Origin: Verrucomicrobiales bacterium
GTDB lineage: Bacteria > Verrucomicrobiota > Verrucomicrobiia > Verrucomicrobiales > DEV007
Length of the DNA stretch: 38,255 bases
Reading direction: 5' to 3'
Assembly (NCBI GenBank): GCA_029210205.1
Contig: JARGOD010000024.1
Coordinates: forward strand, 13,516-51,770
Below the pieces are notes generated by a model. It saw only the letters and a program-made list of their open reading frames with translations. It ran no database searches and was not told the DNA's origin. The position numbers and the translations under genes were made by a program. Each line of letters opens with the position of its first letter. Position 1 is the first letter of the stretch. Shown in pieces: positions 14,911-37,179 of this stretch.

Positions 14911-17097
14911 TCAGCGAGGAGGCTTTTGGTCTTTGGTCAGGCCCTCACGTTCAGACGAGGAAACCTTGCTTTGGGTAGCGAGGTAATTCTTCAGTCCGAT
15001 CCTGCGCAGATACTGCAGGCGTTTTTTCATGGCGTGAGGGCCTAGCTCTCGCCTTAAAATCGCCAGTAGTGCGCTGAAGCTATCGGAAAGAAGTAGATCA
15101 TGCCGTATTCTGTGGACATGGATTGCCGAGGCTCTTGTGTCGCTTGTCTTGTAGAATCGTGATCGGGCAATGGTCATGATTCGTTCCTGCCGTTGATCCC
15201 TGGGGATGGAGTCGAGGACCTGCGCAGGGAAAGAAATATCCAGATCTTCGGACAGAATTTGAATCGGAATCCAGAAAGTACGGGGAAACCTCAGCATGTT
15301 TACCCACCGCAGAACTTTCGTCCATTGAATCGATTCACCTTGAGTCTTCAGGATCCACGCGACACCCCATGCCGTTTTTAATCCGCGGTGATAGCATTCG
15401 GTAGAGAGATGAGTCGTTAGATGGATAAGGAAAGCCTCCGGTTCCATGATTCGGAGTGGTTCCCAGTGAGGGACGGGAACAGTGTGCGCGATCATCGCTT
15501 CTTCCGGCAAATTCCACGTTTTGTCCGCAATGCGAGTGTGGATCTCTAAGTTCAATCCCTTGAATGAAATCGGATCCAGATGCTGAAATCCAGGATCGAA
15601 ACTTGATTGGGCATCGCCGGTAAATCCTCTTTCGAGAAGTAGGTTGCGAAGAGATAGAGCTTTATCGGGGGGAACGAAAAGATCAATGTCGCCTAGCGCC
15701 TTGCAAGGCTGGTCCTTCTCAATTTTCCAACTCTCCAAGATGAGAGCTCCTCCTTTGAGAACTATTGCGTTTTCGATCCTCGCTATTTTTAGAGCCTCAC
15801 GGATTTCTTCGAAAGCTGCCCGGGTGACATTCATTCGGATCGCTTCTCTGAGGGAAGCATCCTGAATTCCTTGTTGAAAGTAGCTCGGGCAGATCGCTTT
15901 TACGGTCGCGTCCTCAAAGAAAGAAAGAGTGGGGCTAGCTAGTCCATTTAGGGAGATCTGTTGGAGAGTTCGTGCCCAATCCAGGTCGGTCCTCCTCACG
16001 ATGTTCAATGGGATCTCTTTTCGACTTCGTCGAGCCAACGAGACATCCAGTATCAGGCTCGTAATTCCCGCGCTGTTTACGAAAGCCATGTTCATGGAAC
16101 CGTGCCTGCGTTTTTGCTCTATCAACATGCGAGCTGCCAGCCTCTCCGCAATTTTTTCTTCCGTTTCGAGTGCCTGATAGATCGCAGCGACCGCTTCCTG
16201 GTGGGAATTGATGTGCAAACATAAATCGCAAATCCCGTTGTATTGCTGCCGGGGTACGAAATCCAGTTCCGGGATATTGCGTATCTCCTCAAGCAGTCTG
16301 GTCGGTCCGAACGTTCGGATGGTTTCCAATATCGGGTCGTTTCTGTGCTTCTCGAGAAGCTCAGGTAAAGTTGATTGATTTAATCTGCCGACTACGAGAG
16401 GTGAATCGTCTTTTGAGAAATAGGAGGGACCGTTGCAGGCAATCAGTCTTCCATCGTCTGTGATGGCAGGGCGCTCACAGGCGTTGCAGAATCCTCTTGT
16501 TTCGCTTCTGAGTTCAGAGCCAGGGAGTCCTTTGGCTCTCCCTACCGGCTGAATGTCGTAGAATCGGAGGTCAACTTGACTGAATCGACTGATCGAAGAG
16601 ATCAGGGGTGAAAGTGCTTCATCGGACTTGAGGCGGGTGAGATTAATCTGAAGCCCAAATCCTATTTCTTCGCATGCTTCTGCGATTGTTAGGATGGGAT
16701 CAATGCCATGAAACTCATCATGAAAAGTGTCATAGCTGATGGTGAGTTGGGAGAGGCCGGCAGATCGAAACTGACGAAGAATTCGAATCACATTCTCTAG
16801 AGTATCTGCTCCCCAGAAACCGTTAGAAACCACAGCTGTCTGAAGATTGTATTTCTGGGCGTGTCGCAGAAGTCTTACGAGGAGATCATGGTCTAGCGTG
16901 GGCTCTCCTCCGGTGAATTGAATCCAGGGGATCCCTGCAAGAGCGGTATCCTCAATCATCTGACGTAGCGTTTCCTCCGAAGTTGAATCCTTCACCGACG
17001 GAGAGCTTGCGACGCTGCAGTGGCCGCAACTCATGTTGCAACGCCTCGTTACCATCAAGGCGATCCCCGGGGTCATTGAATTTCGTTCGTTGAGCAT
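14911..17097 (-). CDS. Radical SAM enzyme fused to a nucleotidyltransferase (RiPP maturase candidate)
   Basis: This 728-residue protein has two parts. The N-terminal radical SAM domain has RRCNMSCGHC (Cys20, Cys24, Cys27; CX3CX2C for the 4Fe-4S cluster) and the GGEP SAM-binding motif at 63-66. A SPASM/twitch-like auxiliary Cys set follows: Cys204/207 (GFCNAC), Cys221 and Cys290/293 (GICDLC). From about residue 430 the sequence becomes a nucleotidyltransferase of the NTP_transf_5 type, with AIVLKGGALILESW (447-452 core) and the metal-binding ALGDIDLFVPPDKA (Asp470, Asp472), then LEIHTRI. Family knowledge: SPASM enzymes modify peptides, and NTP_transf_5 proteins occur in lasso-peptide and related clusters. 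It follows the HPr-kinase-like gene by 13 nt and ends the leftward operon. Substrate is inferred to be the small peptide at 18355. Confidence 0.82.
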   Translation of the reverse strand: MLNERNSMTPGIALMVTRRCNMSCGHCSVASSPSVKDSTSEETLRQMIEDTALAGIPWIQFTGGEPTLDHDLLVRLLRHAQKYNLQTAVVSNGFWGADTLENVIRILRQFRSAGLSQLTISYDTFHDEFHGIDPILTIAEACEEIGFGLQINLTRLKSDEALSPLISSISRFSQVDLRFYDIQPVGRAKGLPGSELRSETRGFCNACERPAITDDGRLIACNGPSYFSKDDSPLVVGRLNQSTLPELLEKHRNDPILETIRTFGPTRLLEEIRNIPELDFVPRQQYNGICDLCLHINSHQEAVAAIYQALETEEKIAERLAARMLIEQKRRHGSMNMAFVNSAGITSLILDVSLARRSRKEIPLNIVRRTDLDWARTLQQISLNGLASPTLSFFEDATVKAICPSYFQQGIQDASLREAIRMNVTRAAFEEIREALKIARIENAIVLKGGALILESWKIEKDQPCKALGDIDLFVPPDKALSLRNLLLERGFTGDAQSSFDPGFQHLDPISFKGLNLEIHTRIADKTWNLPEEAMIAHTVPVPHWEPLRIMEPEAFLIHLTTHLSTECYHRGLKTAWGVAWILKTQGESIQWTKVLRWVNMLRFPRTFWIPIQILSEDLDISFPAQVLDSIPRDQRQERIMTIARSRFYKTSDTRASAIHVHRIRHDLLLSDSFSALLAILRRELGPHAMKKRLQYLRRIGLKNYLATQSKVSSSEREGLTKDQKPPR

Positions 17098-17110
17098 TCC
17101 AGATGGTTCC

Positions 17111-18016
17111 TTAGGCGCTGCGAATCAAATTCAGGATCGTTGAACTCATCGACGAAAGGCTGCGTCGCGGGATTGAGTATACCGGTGCCTTTGATGTGAG
17201 GTCCAGGATTGAGGCAACTGTGCTTGAGGGAGGCACGTCGGAGAGGCGAGCGGTCGATCTGATTATTTGTAGCAATGCTTCTTGAGGATCCAGCTTACTT
17301 GCTTTCGAATCATTCCGTTTCTCTGGATCCAGAAGAAAAACCGCATTGATGTCTGCAGTTGGCGAGTCACTGGTCGGACTTCGGATCTCGGAAGGTTGAA
17401 AGAGGTGACGGACTTCTTTTTGAACCAATTGCTTTGCATAGAGAGAGGACGCGCGAATTGCGTTCAGCGATAGGGGTGAAAGAGCCTCAAAGGTGGACGA
17501 GCGTAGCGAAACACGGCGCAGCAGCGGCGCAGCAATTAGTGGGGTTGTTTCCCCCAAGACAAGACAACGGTCATCGCCCAGGATATCAAATCCTGATTCC
17601 CAGAGTTTCACTGTCAGAGTGGATTTTCCAGCTCCAGATTTGCCAATCAGGAGAATTCCATTCTCGTTTTTATCGCGAAGAAGAGCTGCGTGGATGGGCA
17701 GAGCCTTCGGGGAAGCACGGATGATTTTTCCGCAAACTTGATACTCGAGGTAGTGGAGGCAGTCGTTATGATCAGAGAATTCAGCACTGTTATGGCTACT
17801 GTGCTGCTCTTGTATTCGCCATGAATCAGAGCTTCCGGAGATGTGCCAACTAGTCTCGAAGGGTTCGCACAAATCGACAGGAAACTCGTGGTTCCATGGG
17901 GATCGAGAGAACAGGCGCGAAATAATTTCGACGAGCTCCTGGTCATGACATGTAATGAGAAAGGAAGCGTTCGAATACTGCCAACGGAACTCTGAAGGCC
18001 CGCTTTCGCTATCCAT
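17111..18016 (-). CDS. HPr kinase-like P-loop protein
   Basis: The 301-residue protein has an N-terminal region of about 100 residues without recognised motifs and then an HPr-kinase-like core. It includes PIHAALL (107-113), the Walker A GILLIGKSGAGKSTLTVKL (GKSGAGKS at 125-132) and GFDILGDDRCLVL (GDDR 147-150), the acidic catalytic/metal block. It lacks the HPr-binding context of true HprK. Homologues next to PqqD-like genes in lasso-peptide clusters phosphorylate the precursor's C-terminal serine, so a peptide kinase role is the working inference. Its start overlaps the PqqD-like gene by 8 nt and the radical SAM gene begins 13 nt after its stop, which argues for one operon and translational coupling. 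Confidence 0.8.
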   Translation of the reverse strand: MDSESGPSEFRWQYSNASFLITCHDQELVEIISRLFSRSPWNHEFPVDLCEPFETSWHISGSSDSWRIQEQHSSHNSAEFSDHNDCLHYLEYQVCGKIIRASPKALPIHAALLRDKNENGILLIGKSGAGKSTLTVKLWESGFDILGDDRCLVLGETTPLIAAPLLRRVSLRSSTFEALSPLSLNAIRASSLYAKQLVQKEVRHLFQPSEIRSPTSDSPTADINAVFLLDPEKRNDSKASKLDPQEALLQIIRSTARLSDVPPSSTVASILDLTSKAPVYSIPRRSLSSMSSTILNLIRSA

Positions 18017-18305
18017 TTTCAGACTCGGTGATGTTGATCATTTGCCGATCACTGACTTTCTCAAGAAAGGCTTCAACGTCCTTTCGTAACTGGACCTCCT
18101 CTTGATCGGGAAAACTGGACTTCAGAACATGAACCAATTCGACGACACTCAGTCCACCTGGATTTGATGAAAGCGAATCCCACAGAATACTGCCCGTTGG
18201 GTTCAGGACGAGAACTTTAGAGGCAGACGAATTTCCAATGACGATGCGCTTTCCTGATTTTGAGGTGTTCACCCCTTCGCTAGGAAAGTATCGACTAGTC
18301 AGCAA
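18009..18305 (-). CDS. PqqD-like RiPP recognition element protein
   Basis: This 98-residue protein has the PqqD/RRE pattern: KVLVLNPTGSILWDSL, then LSVVELVHVLKSSF, a second helix LRKDVEAFLEKVSD and a final strand QMINI. These winged-helix proteins bind the leader of a ribosomal peptide and present it to the modifying enzyme. The start is a TTG at 18305 supported by GGAGA at 18320-18316, ten bases upstream; no ATG is available. It lies 49 nt after the small-peptide stop and overlaps the kinase-like gene by 8 nt. A stand-alone RRE, rather than one fused to an enzyme, is normal for lasso and PQQ systems. Confidence 0.82.
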   Translation of the reverse strand: MLTSRYFPSEGVNTSKSGKRIVIGNSSASKVLVLNPTGSILWDSLSSNPGGLSVVELVHVLKSSFPDQEEVQLRKDVEAFLEKVSDRQMINITESENG

Positions 18306-18354
18306 ATTGAGAATTTCTCCGGTGATAAAACGATAAGATCTAAGTCACTGGAAA

Positions 18355-18519
18355 TCAGGGATTTGGCATTGATCCGACAGGAATGACCTGGCCTGCATAG
18401 AGCTGCTCCATTTCGAGAGCTTCATCAGTGAGTTCCAGCTCAATATCTGGTGCTTGATAGGACTGCTGATCAGGTGCCGTCATGCGATTATCTGCAGCCT
18501 GTTTCTCATCGTGTATCAT
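18355..18519 (-). CDS. Candidate RiPP precursor peptide
   Basis: A short acidic peptide directly upstream of the PqqD-like gene in the same operon. From the ATG at 18519 it has 54 residues; an ATG at 18483 gives 42 and a TTG at 18552 gives 65. The leader-like part contains SYQAPDIEL, a Y-x-x-P-x-[I/L] pattern like the RRE-binding motif of lasso leaders, followed by an acidic helix (LTDEALEMEQL) and a distinct tail, YAGQVIPVGSMPNP. The tail is the likely core. It holds one Tyr and one Ser, the latter five residues from the end and so a candidate phosphorylation site. No Cys is present, which argues against thioether chemistry. Assignment rests on position, size and the YxxP motif. Confidence 0.62.
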   Translation of the reverse strand: MIHDEKQAADNRMTAPDQQSYQAPDIELELTDEALEMEQLYAGQVIPVGSMPNP

Positions 18520-18524
18520 TTCGG

Positions 18525-18552
18525 ATGGTATGCGTCCGGATTGAATAGTCAA
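18525..18552 (-). promoter_or_regulatory. Putative sigma-70-type promoter of the RiPP operon
   Basis: Reading leftward, TTGACT (18552-18547) matches the -35 consensus at five of six positions and is followed after 16 nt by TACCAT (18530-18525), four of six for the -10. Transcription would begin near 18518. That would exclude the TTG start at 18552 for the peptide and favour the ATG at 18483, or a nearly leaderless message from 18519. Assigned by eye only. Confidence 0.35.
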
Positions 18553-20770: not shown

Positions 20771-20786
20771 TTGAATGAACCTTCAA
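20771..20786. promoter_or_regulatory. Palindromic operator candidate 2 (TTGAA-N6-TTCAA)
   Basis: TTGAA at 20771-20775 and TTCAA at 20782-20786, extended by one base on each side to CTTGAA and TTCAAG, repeat the palindrome at 20720. It overlaps the first possible ATG (20775) of the peroxiredoxin-like gene. That suggests the real start may be a later in-frame ATG (20793 or 20850) or that the repressor blocks the promoter just ahead of translation. Confidence 0.5.
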
Positions 20787-21533
20787 GAAAATATGATAGA
20801 TACTCTTCGGTTAAAACAATGCCTCTTTGTCGGAGGCGTTTCGGTAGGAATGGCGCTCTCTCCGGGATATCTGGACGCAGAAGAAACGACCTTGCGCGAA
20901 AAGCTTCTCGAACGTGCCTCACAGTCAGGAATGCCACCGGAGGCAAAAGCGAAAATGACACAGCATCTGAACGAACTCACCGATTCAGACATTGTTAGCA
21001 AAGCAGTGAAAACGGGTGACAAGGCTCCGGATTTCAGCTTGAAAGATCACACAGGTGTCGAGCGGTCTCTTTCTGAATATCTTGAGAAAGGTCCGGTGAT
21101 ATTGACCTGGTATCGTGGCGGTTGGTGACCCTACTGCAACCTTGCCATGCGTGCCATGGCAGACCATGCAGATGAGTTCAGTTCGAAGGGTGCAACGGTT
21201 CTCGCTCTCACTCCGGAGCTTCCGGATTACAGCGCTGAAACGGCTGAAGAAAATGGAGTGCCTTTTCCAATACTAACGGATGTAGATCTCCAGATAGCGG
21301 AAAAATACGGGCTCGTTTTTGATCTGGGCATTATTGCAGATCTCTTTGAAGATTATGCAAAATTATCGGAGAGACATGGTGAAGATTCGAAGTCGAAACT
21401 TCCTCTTACCGCAACTTACATCATCGATAGCGACGGTATCGTTCGCTACACGTTTATTGACCCGAATTATCGTAAACGAGCCGAGCCAGCGGATTTGGTA
21501 TCCGAGCTGGAAAAGTTACAAGCAACGGAGTGA
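20775..21533 (+). CDS. Peroxiredoxin-like (AhpC/TSA) selenoprotein with in-frame UGA
   Basis: Reading through TGA at 21126-21128 as selenocysteine gives one 252-residue thioredoxin-fold protein. Before it stand VKTGDKAPDFSLKDHTGVE and GPVILTWYRGGW; after it PYCNLAMRAMADHADEF, LTPELPDYSAETAEENG, VPFPILTDVDLQIAEKYGLVF and ATYIIDSDGIVRYTFIDPNY. The UGA (residue 118) occupies the peroxidatic Cys of the family's W-C-P-Y-C motif, leaving U-P-Y-C with the resolving Cys121 intact. The frame is preserved on both sides and a SECIS-like hairpin follows immediately. Start is uncertain (ATG at 20775, 20793 or 20850); a weak signal peptide is possible with the first two. It likely reduces peroxides, and a DoxX-like gene follows after 50 nt. 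A nonsense-mutated pseudogene is the alternative. Confidence 0.85.
21126..21162 (+). promoter_or_regulatory. UGA selenocysteine codon and bacterial SECIS-like hairpin
   Basis: After UGA (21126-21128) the arms TTGCCATG (21142-21149) and CATGGCAG (21155-21162) form seven Watson-Crick pairs plus one outer U-G pair around the 5-nt loop CGTGC. The loop starts 21 nt after the UGA and its second base is G, followed by T. Bacterial SECIS elements usually place an apical loop with a G in its first two positions about 16-37 nt after the UGA; this one fits. Found by eye. Confidence 0.75.
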
Positions 21534-29143: not shown

Positions 29144-29387
29144 CGCGGACCGGCCACCAGCCGGCGTGACACGCTGATCCCGACTCAAGATGGTCATGTG
29201 GGGGCTAGCAAGCTGCCGGAGACATGGAGTGAATCTGAAAACGTGAAATGGAAGACTGAGATGCCGCTCCCCGGGCTGTCTTCGCCCATCGTGCTCGACA
29301 ATCAGATCTGGTTGACCACCGCGGCAGTGGAGGGCCACGAATACTATGTGCTCTGTGTCGATGCGACGACCGGGGAGACGGTCTAAT
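29144..29387 (+). pseudogene. Truncated copy of the PQQ-propeller gene
   Basis: From about 29182 to 29370 this stretch reads as VGASKLPETWSESENVKW and so on, nearly identical to the start of the mature PQQ-propeller protein encoded at 22985-24310 (LPETWSES, SSPIVL, NQIWLTT and EGHEYYVLCVDATTGE all match). It lacks the signal peptide and all later blades. Just upstream, CGCGGACCGGCCACC (29144-29158) also matches the sequence ahead of the intact gene (22927-22941, one mismatch), so the copy appears to include the upstream region minus the signal peptide. Its last 16 nt (29369-29384) match a later blade of the intact gene at 24035-24050. The stop codon of the caspase-like gene overlaps its end. 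Confidence 0.8.
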
Positions 29388-30609
29388 CCCCTAACGCCTC
29401 AACAATCGCATCGAGTCGATTCTTTTCCGCCTTCAAATCCGGAGCAAGGGAATTGACTTCCTGAATGACTTCCAGGGCGGCGACACAGGTATGGTATTGG
29501 GGACTCCCTTCACGAACCGGTGTGCGTCTATTGTTGGTTAGTGTCACAATTGTGTTTTCTGCTTCCTGCCACCGGGCCCGTTCGGTCTCTATTTTTGCGG
29601 TCACTTCGGCCAGCTGTATTTTCGCCTCAAGGAGCTTCTCCTCTTTCATCTCACTGGCCTTGCTCGGCATCATAATTGTCGGTGCCGGTGTCACGGCGAC
29701 CGTTGATGAGTCCCCATCAGCAGGATTGCGCGCTTCGGAGACAAACGCGAAATTCAAACCTTCAGGGTTTAGCTTGGAGTATTCGGCGGGCTCATGCATG
29801 ACCCCCTTGTTCTCATCACTGAGAAGCTTAGCCCGTTCGCGCACCTCAGTTCGGGTTCGGGCAAAAACCTCCATGAGATTTTTCCCGGGAATCTGAATGT
29901 TTTTGGCAAGGACTGACGTGAATAATCCATCATTCGCCTGCTGCCCTGCATCCGCCGAATAGCTGATTAGCATTCCACTCGGAGCGGTGACTCGACCGAG
30001 CCCTTTTTTTGCTCCCATCAAAGAGCGTGTTCCATTTTTGGTTTCCAGCTCCAGAGGATTGTCGCGGCACGAGTCCAAAATTACCAGCTTGAGCAATGCC
30101 CCGGTCTCATCAAGATCCGATATTGCTTTGCGCAACGCGAGCGTCTTGTAATAGAGTCGGTCCTTCATTCGCTGAACACTTTCATTTCCTGAAGCCTGGA
30201 TTTCAGTATCTCGCAAAAGCAGGTAGTTTTCCCCGTGAAATTCGATCCCGTGTCCTGCGAAATAAACCAGTGCACACTCCGCTCCTTTCGCTGTCTCCAC
30301 GAATTGGTCCATCGCCGTCGCAATCTCTTCGCGATTCCCGTTGGTAATCAACGTCACTTTGAAGGGAATAGGGAGGCTTCGCAGCGTTTCCGCGAGGAGT
30401 TCGGCATCCTTCACCGCAACCTGTAGCTGTGCGTTCGCAGGCAAATGATCATACTGATCGACTCCAATAATGAGAGCGGCCCGCTCAGAAACTCGATCAC
30501 CCTTGTCTTGGGCGAAAAGTTGAGACGCTAGCGCACCGGCTATAACACACCCGCAAAGGCAGCGCATGCCGGCGAATAGTGTTTGATTTCCTTTGGTTAG
30601 CAGATTCAT
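29383..30609 (-). CDS. Exported caspase-like (peptidase C14) protease
   Basis: A 408-residue protein with a signal peptide (VIAGALASQLFAQ) and a caspase p20-like domain: RAALIIGVDQYDHLP, VKDAELLAETLRSL, CALVYFAGHGIEFHGENYLL with catalytic His120, and LKLVILDSCRDNP with catalytic Cys181. GMLISYSADAGQQANDGLFTSVL continues the fold. From about residue 310 a predicted coiled coil follows (EMKEEKLLEAKIQLAEVTAKI). Such orthocaspases cleave after basic or other residues and are common in PVC genomes; partners are unknown. A later Met (residue 15) could also start the protein. It follows the CTLD-Lon gene on the same strand after 176 nt, so both are exported proteases in one neighbourhood. Confidence 0.87.
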   Translation of the reverse strand: MNLLTKGNQTLFAGMRCLCGCVIAGALASQLFAQDKGDRVSERAALIIGVDQYDHLPANAQLQVAVKDAELLAETLRSLPIPFKVTLITNGNREEIATAMDQFVETAKGAECALVYFAGHGIEFHGENYLLLRDTEIQASGNESVQRMKDRLYYKTLALRKAISDLDETGALLKLVILDSCRDNPLELETKNGTRSLMGAKKGLGRVTAPSGMLISYSADAGQQANDGLFTSVLAKNIQIPGKNLMEVFARTRTEVRERAKLLSDENKGVMHEPAEYSKLNPEGLNFAFVSEARNPADGDSSTVAVTPAPTIMMPSKASEMKEEKLLEAKIQLAEVTAKIETERARWQEAENTIVTLTNNRRTPVREGSPQYHTCVAALEVIQEVNSLAPDLKAEKNRLDAIVEALGD

Positions 30610-30785: not shown

Positions 30786-33047
30786 TCACTCCTGCAATTC
30801 TTCCATGACTTCGGGATTCTCAAGAAGTCTCGATCGTTCCGCGCGAGCGGCATCTCCGGCGGCGTTAATATCATCGATCAGCTTATTGACATTGTTGGTT
30901 GATTTGGGCCGGTTGGTCTGGTATTCGCGCATCAACTCCCCCCATCTCGATAGATCATCGGCCCAGTCCCAGGTCCTCTTGTCTAATTTGAGTTTGGAGC
31001 GGCGCAGCAGGCTGAGCGCATCCGAAACCTGGTCATGGTCAAAATCTTGTAGCTCCGAGACTTCCCCGTCTTGAATGACATCCACAATTTGATGGGCGTT
31101 CTGATCGATGAAAGTAAAGGAGCCGGGCAATGAAAGGGAATCAGGGATCCGTCCTTGTGCGAAGGTGAGAAGAATTGAAGCAGAAAGGTGGTTCGGCATG
31201 CCTTTTAGAATTTCTTGAAGCCTTTCAATCGCCTTGGGATGTCGAATCGAGTTGTAAAACGCCGTCGGATTCTTTCGATATATTTCCTGGATTTCGGAGA
31301 ACCCGTTTAGCGCTGATTGGACCGATTCCGACTTCGTGCTGCGGGCAATGGAGTATGCCTCATCGAACGAATTGATGGAGAATACTTGAATCTCGATGAT
31401 CGATCGAATGCCATCCATGACCACGGAATCGTAAACCGATGTGACATTGTCGAAAGGAATCGCAATGGTGGAGCATTTCTGATTGGTGGCGCCTCGAAGT
31501 TTGGCTTCAACGCCGCCGATGGGCTGAACGGAGCCGTCGGCATTCATGTCACCTGTCACAGCGAAGCCGGCATCGAGCGGATCACCAGTGATGGCTGATT
31601 CAAGAAGCAGAGCGCAGGCGACGGCGGCGGAAGGCCCGTCTTTTGGGTTGTACTTGTTCTCAAACGATATCTCAAGTGCATGTCCTCTTGGCCAACCGTT
31701 GTGGCGTAGTTGAGAAAACTTGACCACCTCTTCCAGCGCTTTTTGCATGGTGGCACCGACGTTTTGATTAAATTGCAGTGTGGCCGGAGTTTCCGGGGCT
31801 ATTGGCAGGGCAATCAGTGTCATCGCAGAAGTGCTGCCTGCGTAATTGAGACCACCGAGATCGATCACGAGAAGGCTGTAAACACGAGACTGATTTCTTT
31901 TGATCTCGAGCGGCGCGGCGTGAGCATTCCCCGTGATAATGGCTTTCATGGGACCATCCGGGGGAGTCGAGTTATTTTTTGATGATGTCGTAGTTGTTGT
32001 GGGTTTGGAATTCTGTTTGCTTGGAAGGGTGAGCGAAAAGTCTTCACCCGGCGTGTATTCAACAATCAGTCCATTACCGAATACGGAGCTATCGACGTCT
32101 ATCATTTCCCTTGCTCGGTTTGCATGACCGATCAGGATCCGACGCCCCGGATCCATGCTCTTCGGGCTCTCTTTTGCGAAAGGTGAGCCGTTGATCCATT
32201 TCCACTCTGTTCCGGTGAAAAATCCTCCTAACCAATACCGAAAGTCCGGTTTTGCTGCTGTAAGGAGCATTTTAATAAATCCATGTTCTTCGGCTGTTTC
32301 GATACAAGCGAGATACCCTCCCTGATTTTGAGCAAATTCCTGAGCTTGATCCCAGTAGAGTCTTTCATCATGTGCTACGACATCGTTCTTGGATTTCACA
32401 TCATACCAATGCCCGTTGAACTGAATGGCAGAGTCTGGAATTCCTGAAGGACGAGCGGTAGGGGTATTTGAAGGTTGATTTCCCGACTTCTTTCTAAAGT
32501 AATTAACCAGTTCTTGTTGCCCCCCCGGCAAGTGCGACTCGACTTCTTCTTCAGGCGAGTATTCGACCATCAATCCGCCGCCCTCCTTGGTGTGTCTTCT
32601 AGCCTGAAGGAGAATGATTCCCTCAGCGAGGTTGTTGGCAAACAGCCGATTTTCGCTGTTTGTTTGGGATGGGTTCTTTAACTTTGACTCATCGACCGCG
32701 GTATTGTTGATCCAGCGCCATCCAGCGGTTTCTGAGTAGAATCCGCTGGTCCAGATGTGCCCTCCCGGTCGGGTTTTCATTAGCTCGATGATAAAAGCCC
32801 ATTCATCGGGGGTTTCGATGCAGGCAAGATGCCCTCCTTTCTTTAACGCTATTTCATATGATTCGTCCCAAGTTGGTCTTCTGGGTGGGTCGAGGTCATT
32901 GCTCTTAATGAATTCATACCAATGCCCGTTGAAGTATTTGGCCGTCAAAGGTACTCCGGGCGGGCGCTCCTGGCCCTTGGTTTTCGCGAGCAAGAGAGTC
33001 CAAGCAAAGCACAGCACGGAAAGAACTCGAACGTGAGATAGAGACAT
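30786..33047 (-). CDS. Exported protein with two C-type-lectin-like domains and a Lon-type Ser-Lys protease domain
   Basis: A 753-residue protein with signal peptide (VLSVLCFAWTLLLAKTKG). Two C-type-lectin-like domains occupy about residues 38-165 and 208-333; each starts FNGHWY and has a GG[HY]LACIET block and a [GE]W[RK]WIN block, the classical fold signature. A Thr/Ser/Asn-rich linker (342-365) leads to a domain resembling the Lon proteolytic domain: YNPKDGPSAAVACALLLES gives the catalytic Ser473, and VTGDMNADGSVQPIGGVEAK gives Lys516, the two residues of the Ser-Lys dyad. The AAA+ ATPase part of Lon is absent. An alpha-helical C-terminus follows. The protein may bind glycans or proteins on the surface and cleave them; its target is unknown. 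Confidence 0.82.
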   Translation of the reverse strand: MSLSHVRVLSVLCFAWTLLLAKTKGQERPPGVPLTAKYFNGHWYEFIKSNDLDPPRRPTWDESYEIALKKGGHLACIETPDEWAFIIELMKTRPGGHIWTSGFYSETAGWRWINNTAVDESKLKNPSQTNSENRLFANNLAEGIILLQARRHTKEGGGLMVEYSPEEEVESHLPGGQQELVNYFRKKSGNQPSNTPTARPSGIPDSAIQFNGHWYDVKSKNDVVAHDERLYWDQAQEFAQNQGGYLACIETAEEHGFIKMLLTAAKPDFRYWLGGFFTGTEWKWINGSPFAKESPKSMDPGRRILIGHANRAREMIDVDSSVFGNGLIVEYTPGEDFSLTLPSKQNSKPTTTTTSSKNNSTPPDGPMKAIITGNAHAAPLEIKRNQSRVYSLLVIDLGGLNYAGSTSAMTLIALPIAPETPATLQFNQNVGATMQKALEEVVKFSQLRHNGWPRGHALEISFENKYNPKDGPSAAVACALLLESAITGDPLDAGFAVTGDMNADGSVQPIGGVEAKLRGATNQKCSTIAIPFDNVTSVYDSVVMDGIRSIIEIQVFSINSFDEAYSIARSTKSESVQSALNGFSEIQEIYRKNPTAFYNSIRHPKAIERLQEILKGMPNHLSASILLTFAQGRIPDSLSLPGSFTFIDQNAHQIVDVIQDGEVSELQDFDHDQVSDALSLLRRSKLKLDKRTWDWADDLSRWGELMREYQTNRPKSTNNVNKLIDDINAAGDAARAERSRLLENPEVMEELQE

Positions 33048-33961: not shown

Positions 33962-34738
33962 TCAACCCTTTTTCGGAGTCGCTGGTCCCGTTCCCTGCGG
34001 ATTCCTCGTCTTCGGCCGTTCGATCTTTTCGGCACCCTCGGGAAGTTCGAAAGGCAGCACCTTCTCATCAGTCAGCGCTTTGACCTGGATGTCCTTAATC
34101 TCAACGCGATTTGCATTGCCCCGATGAAGCTGAATCGCGAGGAGTCCCTCGAGAGCGCGACCTTCCTCGTGATAATCGAAAAGCTCCGAAGTGGTTTCGC
34201 CATTCACCTGATGGATCAAATGATTGCCTCGGGCGATGATGGTGTATTCGGTCCACTCCGAGGTGTCGGCCTTGACCGGCTCATGCTCAGAAATCTTCCA
34301 GCGCTCGCCTTCAGGATCGAGAAGGACATTCGTTCCATTCAACCCGAAGATCCCGCGCCCTTTTTCCTCGTAGGTCATCCCGGTGTGTTGAATCGCGGGG
34401 TGGATGTCGCACTGGTAGCCGGTGATGGCCCATTTCCCGAACTCCGGGAGCGGTCGGCTGCGATATTGAATGCCGGAATTGTTATCACCGATGACACGAA
34501 CGGTGGCGCGAAGCTCGAAGTCCTTGAGCGTGTCGTCGCGCCAGATGAGAAAGGAATTGTGCTCCGGGCTTTCGGGGCCGGTGCAGGTGCCGATGATGAC
34601 TCCGTCCTCGACCTTCCAGAGAGCCGGATCGCCGTCCCAGCCGGTGAGGTCTTTGCCGTTGAACAAAGGCGTGAACTCCTCGGCGAAGAGTGGGGTCGCG
34701 AGGCAGGAGAGAGTGATGAGAAGAAGGAATCGCTTCAT
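33962..34738 (-). CDS. Exported DUF1080 (3-keto-disaccharide hydrolase-like) protein
   Basis: A 258-residue exported protein (signal peptide LLLITLSCLATPLFAEE). The DUF1080 pattern is clear: FTPLFNGKDLTGWDGDPALW at the start, then VEDGVIIG, FELRATVRV, NSGIQYRS, GYQCDIHP and LAIQLHRGNANRVEIKDIQVK at the end. This concanavalin-like domain family includes 3-keto-glycoside hydrolases and sugar-binding proteins. The gene overlaps the sulfatase-sialidase gene by 4 nt, so it is translationally coupled and probably acts on the same glycan. The C-terminal 35 residues form a Pro/Lys-rich tail (TRNPQGTGPATPKKG). Confidence 0.92.
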   Translation of the reverse strand: MKRFLLLITLSCLATPLFAEEFTPLFNGKDLTGWDGDPALWKVEDGVIIGTCTGPESPEHNSFLIWRDDTLKDFELRATVRVIGDNNSGIQYRSRPLPEFGKWAITGYQCDIHPAIQHTGMTYEEKGRGIFGLNGTNVLLDPEGERWKISEHEPVKADTSEWTEYTIIARGNHLIHQVNGETTSELFDYHEEGRALEGLLAIQLHRGNANRVEIKDIQVKALTDEKVLPFELPEGAEKIERPKTRNPQGTGPATPKKG

Positions 34739-37179
34739 GGTTCGATGGTAGGGTTTAGGGCGGCGGGATCAAGAACGACGTGTTTGATCGTCTCGCGTTT
34801 CCAGGTGTAGGTGATGTGGATTTTGCCGTCGGAGGTCTGGATCATGGCGGGGTAGGAATACTCCCCTTCATCCCGCTCGAGGGTAAGGATTGGGGTCCAC
34901 TGTTTTCCATCGTCTGAGATCGCGACGTTCAGCATCGCGCGCTTCGCGGGGAATGGTCCTTTCCTAACGGTGTGATTGTAGACGATGAGTTGTCGTCCAT
35001 CGCTGAGGGTGACGGCATCGGTTCCTGAGTTGGGATTCGGCAAGGCGGTCGCCGAAAAGTCGCTCCAGGTTTTGCCGCCGTCCTCGGACCAGCTTTGACC
35101 GACGAAGCCTTCGAGTGAGCGACACAAAACTTGCAGTCGCCCGTCAGGATAGCTGAGGAGGCTTGGCTGAATCATGTTGTAGTTCTTTGCGTCATTGATT
35201 GGGCCGATCACTTCCCAGGTTTCGCCGAGATCACGGGTCACTTCGAAATGGACGCGCCATCCATCGTGCTCGGTGCTGCTGGGGCAAATGATCGTTCCAT
35301 CAGCGAGCTCGAGCGGTTTGTTTTTAACCGGTCCGATGAGGTGAGGATTTCCTTCGCCGAGCTTGGCCGACTGCCCGAGGCGCTTCGGCTCACTCCAGGT
35401 TTTCCCGTGGTCGGTGGAGGTCGTGAGCATGCCCCACCAGTGGGTCGCCCTTCCCACTTCAGGATCGACGACTTTGTAGAAAAGCATGAGAGGACCTTCC
35501 GAGGGCTGAAAGAGAACGGGATTCCCGACGCGGTGATCGCGGGACTCCCCTTCGGTCCCGTCAACGACCATGGTCGGCTCGTCCCAGGCACCGTTGAGAT
35601 GACGCGAAACCCAGATCACGTTGTCGATATCGGGTTCGCTCGTGCCGCCGAACCACGAGGCGACGAGCCCGTTGGAGGTTTCGACGATGGTCGAGGAATG
35701 ACAACTCGGTGTCGGTGCCTCGTCAGGAGGAAAGATCATCTCCGCACTGAGGTATCCGGGGTCTCCGGGAGAGCCGAGAGGAGGAAGCTTCGATTTTGAA
35801 GGATGGTAGTTGTCCGACAGCCAAATCGGTCCGCCGCGATAGATCTCGCCGATGGGATAGCGATCATTCGGCGTCACTGCTTCCGCCATGATCGTTTCAA
35901 TTTGGCTGACGACTTCAGGATGATCCGCTGCGAGGTCGGTCGTTTCTCCGAGGTCTTCGGCGAGATTGAAAAGCTGAAGCTGACCGTCATTTCTTCCAAG
36001 ACGGACTCCTTTCCAGTCCCCGATGCGAACCGCCTGATCGTAGTAGCGACGGCAATGTCCATGATCCCAGTAGAGAAAGGATCGCTCTTCTTCGAGCTTC
36101 GCTCCGGTCAGGGCGCCGGTGATGGAGAGGCCGTCGAGGTCTTCGGGAATCTCGGCTCCGCCGAGTTCGGCGAAGGTAGGCATCATGTCTTGAGAAGCGA
36201 TTACTTCATCGCTGACGAGACCGGGTTCAATCGTTCCGGGCCAGCGGGCGATGAAGGGAACGCGGACGCCTCCTTCATAGAGGTCCCGCTTGAAGCCTCG
36301 AAGCGGTCCGCTCGTTTGAAAGATTTCATCGACATTCTTGTGCCCCCCGTTGTCGCTCGTGAAAATGATGAGGGTTTCCTCGGCGAGGCCGAGCTCATCG
36401 ACGAGATCGCAAATTCGACCGACGTCACGATCAAGAAGATGAATCATCGCCGCGTATTTCTTCGCCTTCTCTGACCAGTCCCGATCGGCATAGGGATCGG
36501 TCGATGGCACAGCAAGACCGTCAGGGTCTTCATCGAGCGAAGAGAAGTGCGGCAGGGTGTAGGCGGCGTAATAGAAAAAGGGCGTGTCGCCCGACTCACT
36601 GATGAATTTGACCGCTTCGTCGGTGAGAAGATCGTGGCTGTAGTGCTCTCTCGTGATGGCATTGTCAGGAAGTTCGCGGCGGCCTTTGTCGTCATCGAGA
36701 TACTCGGTGAAATAGTAGTGAGCATGATCCTGATTCAGGTAGCCGAACCAGTGATCAAATCCCTGATTTAGAGCGGCGCCCGATGTTCCGGCATCGCCGA
36801 GTGACCATTTTCCGATCCCGCCGGTGCGGTAGCCGGAGGCCTTGAGGACTTCGGCGACGGTGAGATCCTCATCGTCGAAGTAGGTCGGGTAGTGAGGAAC
36901 GTTGTCGCGGGCCGGGGTACGACCGGCGTGGAGGCCGGTCATGAGAACGCTGCGCGAGGGGGTGCAGACAGGGCCTCCGGAGTAGGCCTGAGTGAAACGA
37001 ATTCCCTCTTCCGCCAATCGGTCGATGTGAGGTGTCTCGATCAGCTTCTGACCGTAACACCCGAGGTCGCCGTAGCCGAGGTCATCGGCCATGATAAAGA
37101 TAATGTTAGGCTGTTCCCGTGCGTCGGAACAGCTGATTGTAGCGATGCCGATGAGAACAAAGAAGGCGATGATTTTCAT
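34735..37179 (-). CDS. Sulfatase-sialidase fusion protein
   Basis: This 814-residue exported protein joins two enzymes. The N-terminal sulfatase (about 20-470) has PNIIFIMADDLGYGDLG (metal ligands), the formylglycine site VCTPSR (Cys72), TGGIGKWSLGD and LIIFTSDNGGH. From about residue 480 a sialidase-like beta-propeller follows: SCHSSTIVETSNGLVASWFG, then Asp-box-type repeats STDHGKTWSEP, TRDLGETWEV and SEDGGKTWSD, the last strand carrying AISDDGKQWTP and EGEYSYPAMIQTSDGKIHITYTW. The substrate could be a sulfated, sialylated glycan or another O-sulfated sugar; sialic-acid specificity is not proven by Asp boxes. The gene overlaps its neighbours by 4 nt at both ends, consistent with tight coupling. 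Confidence 0.88.
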   Translation of the reverse strand: MKIIAFFVLIGIATISCSDAREQPNIIFIMADDLGYGDLGCYGQKLIETPHIDRLAEEGIRFTQAYSGGPVCTPSRSVLMTGLHAGRTPARDNVPHYPTYFDDEDLTVAEVLKASGYRTGGIGKWSLGDAGTSGAALNQGFDHWFGYLNQDHAHYYFTEYLDDDKGRRELPDNAITREHYSHDLLTDEAVKFISESGDTPFFYYAAYTLPHFSSLDEDPDGLAVPSTDPYADRDWSEKAKKYAAMIHLLDRDVGRICDLVDELGLAEETLIIFTSDNGGHKNVDEIFQTSGPLRGFKRDLYEGGVRVPFIARWPGTIEPGLVSDEVIASQDMMPTFAELGGAEIPEDLDGLSITGALTGAKLEEERSFLYWDHGHCRRYYDQAVRIGDWKGVRLGRNDGQLQLFNLAEDLGETTDLAADHPEVVSQIETIMAEAVTPNDRYPIGEIYRGGPIWLSDNYHPSKSKLPPLGSPGDPGYLSAEMIFPPDEAPTPSCHSSTIVETSNGLVASWFGGTSEPDIDNVIWVSRHLNGAWDEPTMVVDGTEGESRDHRVGNPVLFQPSEGPLMLFYKVVDPEVGRATHWWGMLTTSTDHGKTWSEPKRLGQSAKLGEGNPHLIGPVKNKPLELADGTIICPSSTEHDGWRVHFEVTRDLGETWEVIGPINDAKNYNMIQPSLLSYPDGRLQVLCRSLEGFVGQSWSEDGGKTWSDFSATALPNPNSGTDAVTLSDGRQLIVYNHTVRKGPFPAKRAMLNVAISDDGKQWTPILTLERDEGEYSYPAMIQTSDGKIHITYTWKRETIKHVVLDPAALNPTIEP

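Follow-up and report, generated by a model that had tools for sequence, protein, structure and literature searches.

The 38,255-nucleotide stretch of Verrucomicrobiales DNA analysed here (assembly GCA_029210205.1, contig JARGOD010000024.1, positions 13,516 to 51,770; hereafter the window) carries a compact set of four genes that we read as a cassette for a ribosomally synthesized and post-translationally modified peptide (RiPP). The genes encode a small precursor peptide, a PqqD-like RiPP recognition element (RRE), an HPr-kinase-like protein and a radical S-adenosylmethionine (SAM) domain fused to an NTP_transf_5-type nucleotidyltransferase. A gene-encoded precursor adjoins its putative modifying enzymes, as in a RiPP pathway, and the same genes stand in identical order at four loci in three phyla. 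As judged by sequence comparison, the cassette is real and conserved and is neither a lasso nor an epipeptide cluster by the tests made here; our best reading is an undescribed RiPP variant. We consider it rather probable that the cassette specifies a pathway in which the RRE-bound peptide would undergo phosphorylation, nucleotidyl or sugar transfer and a radical reaction, and that it descends from lasso peptide clusters.

Gene content and layout of the cassette

The cassette occupies positions 14911-18552 on the minus strand, where a preliminary description made from the sequence letters had placed four packed, leftward genes. All four open reading frames (ORFs) are present, with gaps of 49, -8 and 13 nt from peptide to PqqD-like to HPr-kinase-like to fusion gene:

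18355..18552, minus strand: precursor peptide gene, 65 amino acids from TTG; member of a family of five peptides at four loci
18009..18305, minus strand: PqqD-like RRE gene, 98 amino acids, TTG start; PF05402, E = 2.5e-9
17111..18016, minus strand: HPr-kinase-like putative peptide kinase, 301 amino acids; Pfam and NCBIfam matches and conserved residues
14911..17097, minus strand: radical SAM and NTP_transf_5 fusion gene, 728 amino acids
16108..17097, minus strand: EpeE/YydG-like radical SAM domain of the fusion, about residues 1-330
14911..15987, minus strand: NTP_transf_5 domain and C-terminal tail of the fusion, from about residue 371; PF14907, E = 2.6e-24

The family names given earlier agree with the Pfam and NCBIfam matches, and the GKSGAGKS and GDDR motifs reported for the HPr-kinase-like protein are both there. 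The label 'SPASM-like' for the radical enzyme was imprecise but not mistaken: no SPASM match at E <= 1 was obtained for the window protein, whereas its relative at locus L041 scores 25.9 bits against a SPASM cut-off of 21.5, and sequence comparison refines the domain to EpeE/YydG-like.

Recurrence across three phyla

We scanned contigs of one genome per species with an alignment of the radical enzyme, which matched at least 590 stretches and gave at least 453 relatives, with 80 loci kept. The full-length fusion was found in at least two of the scanned loci, one from Ca. Sumerlaeaceae (L039) and one from Ca. Rokuibacteriota (L040), at 39% and 43% identity to the window fusion over the best segment; both have the window's order of peptide gene or genes, RRE, kinase and fusion. 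Among 288 genomes belonging to the window's order, one further fusion locus came to light, in the window's own genus (genome G570, locus L124) and with the same gene order. The preliminary description had held that synteny with a conserved Y-x-x-P peptide in several species would support its reading, and that homologous loci lacking such a peptide, or fusion homologues always beside unrelated substrates, would speak against it; the four loci in three phyla show the former, and neither of the latter was found.

In all four loci the kinase, RRE and fusion genes overlap or lie no more than 27 nt apart with the starts chosen, and the genes flanking the cassettes differ (a comparison that used Pfam on 29 window proteins and one from L039, and reading of translations for the rest). 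The three intact fusions are about 37-41% identical, and the window and G570 fusions share only 41% despite belonging to the same genus. The G+C content of the cassette is slightly lower than that of its flanks in the window (0.498 versus 0.542) and in G570 (0.514 versus 0.568), and slightly higher in the L039 and L040 loci (0.621 versus 0.587 and 0.699 versus 0.686).

Fusion-level matches are rare: 2 of the 288 genomes of the window's order, window genome included, and 1 of 40 and 1 of 95 genomes in the L039 and L040 phyla, respectively. A 387-genome sample of the window's phylum gave such a match in the window genome only, and 294 genomes of Planctomycetota, the phylum of locus L070, yielded a single relative at E <= 1e-40, which is not a fusion (L168). 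Kinship places the window in Verrucomicrobiota, as genomes assigned to its class include that of a Methylacidiphilum record. The patchy distribution of the fusion suggests transfer or loss, with no decision between the two. Plasmid and viral origins were considered and rejected: tblastn of the L039 fusion against plasmids returned no record covering 80% of it and the L039 kinase none, no relative was found on viral contigs, and PHROGs gave only generic radical SAM and weak helicase-loader matches.

A precursor peptide family

The four loci encode five peptides (two in L039) with the consensus Y-x-x-P-x-[IV]-E-x10-E-x-x-[YF]-A-G followed by 5-11 variable residues. The Y, P, both E, A and G positions are fixed in all five, and the [YF] position is Phe in one. 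The window peptide has the Y-x-x-P leader motif, the E-x-x-[YF]-A-G segment and the tail QVIPVGSMPNP. Its candidate starts are a TTG giving 65 residues, an ATG giving 54 and an ATG at 18483 giving 42; the 42-residue form, with eight acidic and no basic residues, is the part that aligns with the relatives. No clear ribosome-binding site precedes any of these three starts or the G570 peptide, and AGGAGG precedes the L040 peptide and AGGAG one of the L039 peptides.

Database searches assigned the window peptide to no family, its single Pfam match (E = 0.19) lying below the cut-off, and the family profile had no PDB match up to E = 10. Leave-one-out profiles, with both L039 copies removed together, recovered the held-out peptides at E = 3.3e-5 to 3.6e-9 (3.3e-5 for the window peptide), with no other non-training match up to E = 1 in 23,604 reading frames (1.37 Mb). 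Across the 288 genomes of the order, the profile matched strongly only in the two fusion carriers (3.0e-17 and 1.3e-20); two other matches, at E = 0.004-0.005 in frames of 274 and 437 amino acids, are taken as chance. The family is otherwise absent among 168 loci (next best E = 0.008). The leave-one-out profiles and the order-wide search rule out a chance peptide and argue that the family is real.

Each of the five tails contains at least one Ser or Thr. Lasso leaders carry Y at -17 and P at -14 (PMC10368454); applied to the cassette peptides, this register gives the cores EQLYAGQVIPVGSMPNP, EVLYAGGAPVGSGVVL, ETLFAGVQTPG, EIHYAGGTTAM and EVQYAGRASLLAE and would put the core start at the invariant Glu. 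In that register the window core has no Gly start, unlike lasso peptides.

Lasso-like helper proteins

The RRE, the kinase and the nucleotidyltransferase are lasso-like as far as their sequences tell, which upholds the earlier proposal of lasso-type helpers. An RRE profile built from the four loci retrieved four PDB sequences at E <= 0.1, namely TbiB1 (5v1u, E = 5.7e-9), a lasso PqqD-family chaperone, another PqqD-family protein and TfuB1 (0.084); TbiB1 and TfuB1 we take to be lasso B1 proteins. The window RRE used alone found none of these PDB relatives. With the YxxP motif in all five peptides and an RRE profile that matches lasso B1, leader binding of the lasso type is predicted.

The window kinase matches Hpr_kinase_C (PF07475, E = 2.7e-5, below the Pfam cut-off) and HprK_rel_A (TIGR04352, E = 1.4e-10, 40.7 bits against a cut-off of 200). 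The kinase profile finds HPr kinases first and ABC (ATP-binding cassette) transporter P-loops as well, and a model of moderate confidence (predicted local distance difference test, pLDDT, 66.9, from four sequences) matches phosphoenolpyruvate carboxykinase and HPr kinase folds. Residues H109, G125, G130, K131, S132, D148 and D149 are kept in all four loci. For the lasso kinase BsfK, H, G163, K, S, D and D are reported to be important, and the G166A and G168A variants to be nearly fully active (PMC10368454). Matched by motif spacing, the important BsfK residues correspond to H109, G125, K131, S132, D148 and D149, and G166 to a position that varies among the cassette kinases; the putative kinase keeps the residues needed in a lasso kinase.

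The nucleotidyltransferase half matches PF14907 over residues 371-609 of the window fusion, and its G469-D470-x-D472 recurs as G-D-x-D in all four loci (from the alignment for L039 and from the sequences of L040 and G570). The linker at 334-372 has low confidence in the predicted model, and the top 50 Foldseek matches for the fusion are radical SAM structures only, with none for this half. In lasso clusters, nucleotidyltransferases are reported to occur fused to B2, and PsmN to transfer hexose to phosphorylated Ser (PMC8498205, PMC9266682).

An EpeE-like radical domain with a changed donor site

The N-terminal half of the window fusion matches Radical_SAM (PF04055, E = 1.3e-14) and is nearest to EpeE/YydG (TIGR04078, E = 1.6e-30), although its 106.7 bits fall short of the curated EpeE equivalog cut-off of 300. 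The best PDB matches are 8ai1-8ai6 (8ai6, E = 2e-20), and a Foldseek search with the fusion model (mean pLDDT 77.6) placed EpeE structures at ranks 1-9 (best E = 4.8e-15; template modeling score on the target 0.76-0.79). Alongside the EpeE fold, the domain has the cysteines expected for the radical cluster (C20/C24/C27) and for an auxiliary-type cluster (C204/C221/C290/C293), plus an extra C207. C221, C290 and C293 align with EpeE; the fourth EpeE ligand corresponds to C204 or C207 depending on the pairwise alignment, and a 21-row alignment favours C204.

The hydrogen-donor site differs from that of EpeE. N222 of the window protein stands at the position of the EpeE donor Cys223, the second Cys of Pro-Cys-Cys-Ser-Pro, and PDB entry 8ai3, titled C223A, has Ala at the aligned position. 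Among the 21 of 85 rows that cover the full profile (64 were dropped; L056/L058 and L010/L012/L041 are near copies), all four fusions have Asn at the donor position and 14 of the 17 others have Cys, with Gly, Pro or Ile in L072, L073 and L168. The unfiltered table holds two more unfused relatives without the donor Cys, L078 and L083. C207, which may be either a relocated donor or a cluster ligand, occurs in the four fusions and in none of the 17 full-length non-fusion relatives. Because the fusions form one clade (support 95/96, in a tree with several distant rows on long branches) and all have Asn at the donor position, the fusion probably arose once among the sampled sequences, together with the donor-site change.

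The Planctomycetota relative (L168:1462-2502), EpeE-like but unfused, has Ile in place of the donor Cys, and the 4 kb of its locus that were examined showed no relative of the kinase, the RRE or the nucleotidyltransferase.

Relation to lasso clusters

The cassette resembles phosphorylated and phosphoglycosylated lasso peptide clusters, such as those of paeninodin and pseudomycoidin and the bsf cluster of Bradymonas, in its Y-x-x-P-x-hydrophobic leader motif, its B1/PqqD-type RRE, an HPr-kinase-like protein sharing the key residues and a nucleotidyltransferase capable of fusion to a second enzyme (PMC10368454, PMC8498205, PMC9266682). Unlike those clusters, it has no B2 family match and no cyclase nearby, and its nucleotidyltransferase is fused to a radical SAM domain. 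None of the four fusion-bearing genomes matches lasso B2 (PF13471) at E <= 0.001, whereas 2 of 14 control genomes do; the genomes may be incomplete (86.6% complete for the window genome). The Pfam search for an Asn_synthase cyclase, which covered 29 window proteins and not the remainder of the genomes, gave none, and tblastn of the L042 cyclase-type protein found nothing in L039, L040, L124 or L125. With no B2 family match in four genomes and no cyclase near, a lasso cluster was rejected, and the earlier proposal that a radical SAM enzyme replaces the B2 protease and C cyclase holds in so far as both are missing where they were sought.

Screened with our own profiles, 5 of the 80 loci (L039-L043) had kinase, RRE or nucleotidyltransferase relatives. 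Two of these, L042 (LP2A) and L043 (Methylacidimicrobium tartarophylax), encode a kinase, a radical SAM enzyme and an RRE followed by an Asn_synthase gene with a GATase domain; the L042 protein is of lasso-cyclase type (E = 2.1e-37) and its L043 counterpart is 77% identical. L043 also has a Transglut_core3-NTP_transf_5 (B2-NTP_transf_5) fusion on the other strand, and each locus has one further NTP_transf_5 gene.

L042:6844-11584 and L043:5443-11677, with L042:12459-13655 and L043:13356-14720: lasso-cyclase-type clusters with an EpeE-like enzyme

The two loci share with the window an EpeE/YydG-like radical SAM enzyme, a kinase, an RRE and NTP_transf_5 genes. Unlike the window, they keep a lasso-cyclase-type gene, their radical enzyme is unfused with the donor Cys present, and a peptide of the window's family was found in neither locus. 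Their products are possibly epimerised lasso peptides, and the loci offer a possible bridge, in sequence terms, between lasso clusters and the cassette. The simplest account would have an EpeE-like enzyme join kinase/nucleotidyltransferase lasso clusters, and fusion to the nucleotidyltransferase with loss of protease and cyclase follow in one line.

A separate Methylacidiphilum-type cassette (L041 and L010-L013, L013 being the same sequence as L041) has the order peptide, kinase, radical SAM, RRE. Its peptide has 97-110 amino acids and a hydrophobic tail, its EpeE-like radical SAM enzyme has the donor Cys, and in L011 the ORF of the HPr-kinase-like protein is split in two. Searches of L041, L010, L011 and L012 turned up no relative of the cyclase, and the cassette looks like an epipeptide-type cluster with a kinase.

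Other kinase cassettes and comparison systems

HprK_rel_A exceeded its cut-off in 50 of 299 genomes of Pseudomonadota (the phylum of L083, Limnobacter), and 81 genomes matched at E <= 1e-12. Among 16 HprK_rel_A regions compared, an NTP_transf_5-type gene lies beside the kinase in 6 of the 9 over the cut-off, and our own profiles found neither a radical SAM gene nor a window-family peptide in any of those 9. In 2 of the 7 regions below the cut-off, L164 and L165, a peptide gene is followed or preceded directly by radical SAM/SPASM, PqqD-like and kinase genes (the PqqD-like gene of L164 was identified by reading), and in L165 an NTP_transf_5 gene (E = 3.2e-30) lies about 57 nt from the first peptide gene on the other strand.

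L165:373-4840 and L164:1380-4099 (Pseudomonadota sample): radical SAM/SPASM, PqqD and kinase cassettes

These two regions are like the window in having peptides, PqqD-like, kinase and radical SAM genes, with NTP_transf_5 also in L165. They differ in that the genes are unfused, the radical enzyme belongs to another, SPASM-containing family, and the peptides share an RRLLKL..YVPPA region, with its R-R-L-L-K-L stretch, and do not belong to the window's family.

The HPr-rel-A system (TIGR04352/TIGR04353) also has an HPr-kinase-like gene beside an NTP_transf_5-type gene, but lacks a radical SAM gene and a window-family peptide in the nine over-cut-off regions described above. All four cassette kinases score below the TIGR04352 cut-off (L039 66.3, L040 56.2, G570 45.7 bits, and the window as given), on which ground membership was rejected; the L039 RRE scores 33.1 against a TIGR04353 cut-off of 35. 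The SynChlorMet cassette (ScmA-F) likewise combines HPr-kinase-like, PqqD-like and radical SAM proteins, with two radical SAM/SPASM proteins. Membership was rejected here too, as window and L039 are far below the model cut-offs: window proteins score 24.1 of 125 bits with ScmC and 14.5 of 100 with ScmD, the L039 protein 29.2 and 35 of 400 with ScmE and ScmF, and neither ScmE nor ScmF is among the best 25 of 56 families for the window fusion. The epipeptide enzyme EpeE/YydG resembles the window over the full length of the radical SAM domain and in its auxiliary-cluster-type cysteines, but the window has Asn for Cys223, the extra C207, the NTP_transf_5 fusion and RRE and kinase partners.

In literature searches made mostly without subscription journals, no report joined radical SAM, HPr kinase, PqqD, nucleotidyltransferase and RiPP; none combined HprK with radical SAM and RiPP, or radical SAM with serine kinase, RiPP and nucleotidyltransferase; none concerned SynChlorMet; and HPr kinase was absent from the PqqD and radical SAM literature among the matches listed. 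A Paenibacillus genome paper mentions radical SAM, lasso peptide, nucleotidyltransferase and PqqD, and lasso peptide literature covers HPr kinase together with nucleotidyltransferase. These negatives are weak evidence of novelty.

Proposed pathway and alternatives

From the gene set, its order, the peptide family, the residue patterns and the lack of B2-family matches, which come from comparison, we infer each chemical step, the order of steps and the evolutionary direction. The PqqD-like protein would bind the Y-x-x-P leader of the small acidic precursor in the manner of lasso B1, the HPr-kinase-like enzyme would phosphorylate Ser or Thr in the short C-terminal tail, and the NTP_transf_5 domain would then extend that phosphate with a nucleotidyl or sugar group. 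The EpeE-like domain may take a hydrogen atom within the conserved E-x-x-[YF]-A-G segment, and because all four fusions have Asn for the donor Cys together with an additional Cys, C207, the radical may be quenched from a different side, giving altered epimerisation, or used for another reaction. With both domains in a single enzyme, the RRE-bound peptide could be modified twice by the same protein. Lasso clusters with a kinase and a nucleotidyltransferase are the probable source of the cassette; they would have acquired an EpeE-like enzyme before losing protease and cyclase.

Several observations weigh against this reading or narrow it. No cassette protein of the window exceeds any NCBIfam cut-off among the families listed (for the fusion, the best 25 of 56); the window kinase and RRE share only 26-33% identity with their counterparts elsewhere; the L040 fusion gene is read in two frames; and the peptide tails differ in length and in Ser/Thr placement. 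The four known loci are a lower bound on distribution, given at least 590 scan matches. Loss of the donor Cys is not unique to the fusions, to judge from the aligned residues of L072, L073, L168, L078 and L083. No exporter or protease recurs beside the cassettes (the downstream DNA read was about 0.9 kb in L039 and 1.3 kb in L040), and maturation as read would be incomplete or dependent on host genes. The combination of kinase, PqqD, nucleotidyltransferase and radical SAM also occurs, by its gene content, unfused in L165, which speaks for a functional connection among these enzymes and makes the set less novel. The preliminary description had known of no described system with this exact set, a claim now weakened, since the set occurs in L165 as separate genes, alongside unrelated peptides and with a radical enzyme of a different, SPASM-containing kind; its account of a RiPP-type cassette with peptide, synteny and helpers stands. 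Three traits still set the window's kind apart: the fusion, an EpeE-like domain whose donor site has changed, and the peptide family.

A bolder version, which we hold only tentatively and regard as a good deal less probable than the pathway above, would make the cassette a new RiPP class reached through L042/L043-like intermediates, in which a bifunctional enzyme would carry out a radical reaction unlike that of EpeE and then nucleotidylate or glycosylate the kinase-installed phosphate. The hydrogen donor would have moved from 222 to C207, or a Calpha radical would cross-link or cut the backbone at E-x-x-[YF]-A-G, and the product would be a phospho-nucleotidyl, possibly cofactor-like peptide. 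In a rival reading, the peptide would be no exported bioactive at all but would give a cofactor-like molecule used inside the cell; phosphorylation and nucleotidylation, as in a coenzyme, would follow cross-linking or rearrangement at E-x-x-[YF]-A-G. In pyrroloquinoline quinone biosynthesis, Glu and Tyr are cross-linked or rearranged, and the cassette peptides have an invariant Glu three residues from Tyr/Phe, an invariant Ala-Gly and a PqqD-type partner, while the flanks have no transporter, immunity or protease gene in common (mostly by reading of translations). We think this unlikely, however: one of five peptides has Phe for Tyr, the radical domain is closest to an epimerase and not to PqqE, no dedicated user enzyme is seen nearby, and the cassette is rare (2/288, 1/40 and 1/95 genomes).

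To the same low degree we credit a variant epipeptide pathway, in which C207 would be a relocated hydrogen donor for plain epimerisation and the kinase and nucleotidyltransferase would be regulatory or self-protective. EpeE/YydG is the closest family and fold, the auxiliary-type cysteines are kept and the extra Cys is confined to the four fusions among the 21 rows, but the Asn at the donor position, the RRE, kinase and nucleotidyltransferase partners and the lack of transporter genes beside the cassette fit poorly. That the genes are non-functional leftovers of a lasso cluster (RRE, kinase and nucleotidyltransferase) with a radical SAM gene, as the missing B2 match in four genomes and the two-frame L040 fusion might hint, is very improbable: the three intact fusions, at about 37-41% identity, keep open frames and key residues, and the peptide, RRE and kinase genes are open with key residues in all four loci.

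The favoured four-gene pathway would link lasso-type leader recognition and tailoring with EpeE-type radical chemistry in a minimal set, and such a set with a defined substrate could be rebuilt in E. coli. Its fusions are natural EpeE relatives with a changed donor site, which makes them a test of what sets the fate of a peptide radical, and they provide a setting in which to ask what the NTP_transf_5 proteins of peptide clusters transfer, a question unsettled for pseudomycoidin. In addition, L042 and L043 suggest that there are lasso-type clusters with an epimerase-like radical enzyme.

Other features of the window

Elsewhere in the window, a caspase-like (Peptidase_C14/CHAT) gene adjoins one for a 753-amino-acid protein matching Lectin_C and Lon_C (29383-30609 and 30786-33047, minus strand). 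Two ORFs at 20775-21128 and 21147-21533 match successive parts of an AhpC/TSA-like family profile and point either to an error in sequencing or to a broken gene. Pfam found Sulfatase in four of the scanned window proteins, and an 814-amino-acid protein encoded at 34735-37179 is a Sulfatase fused to a BNR-repeat domain.

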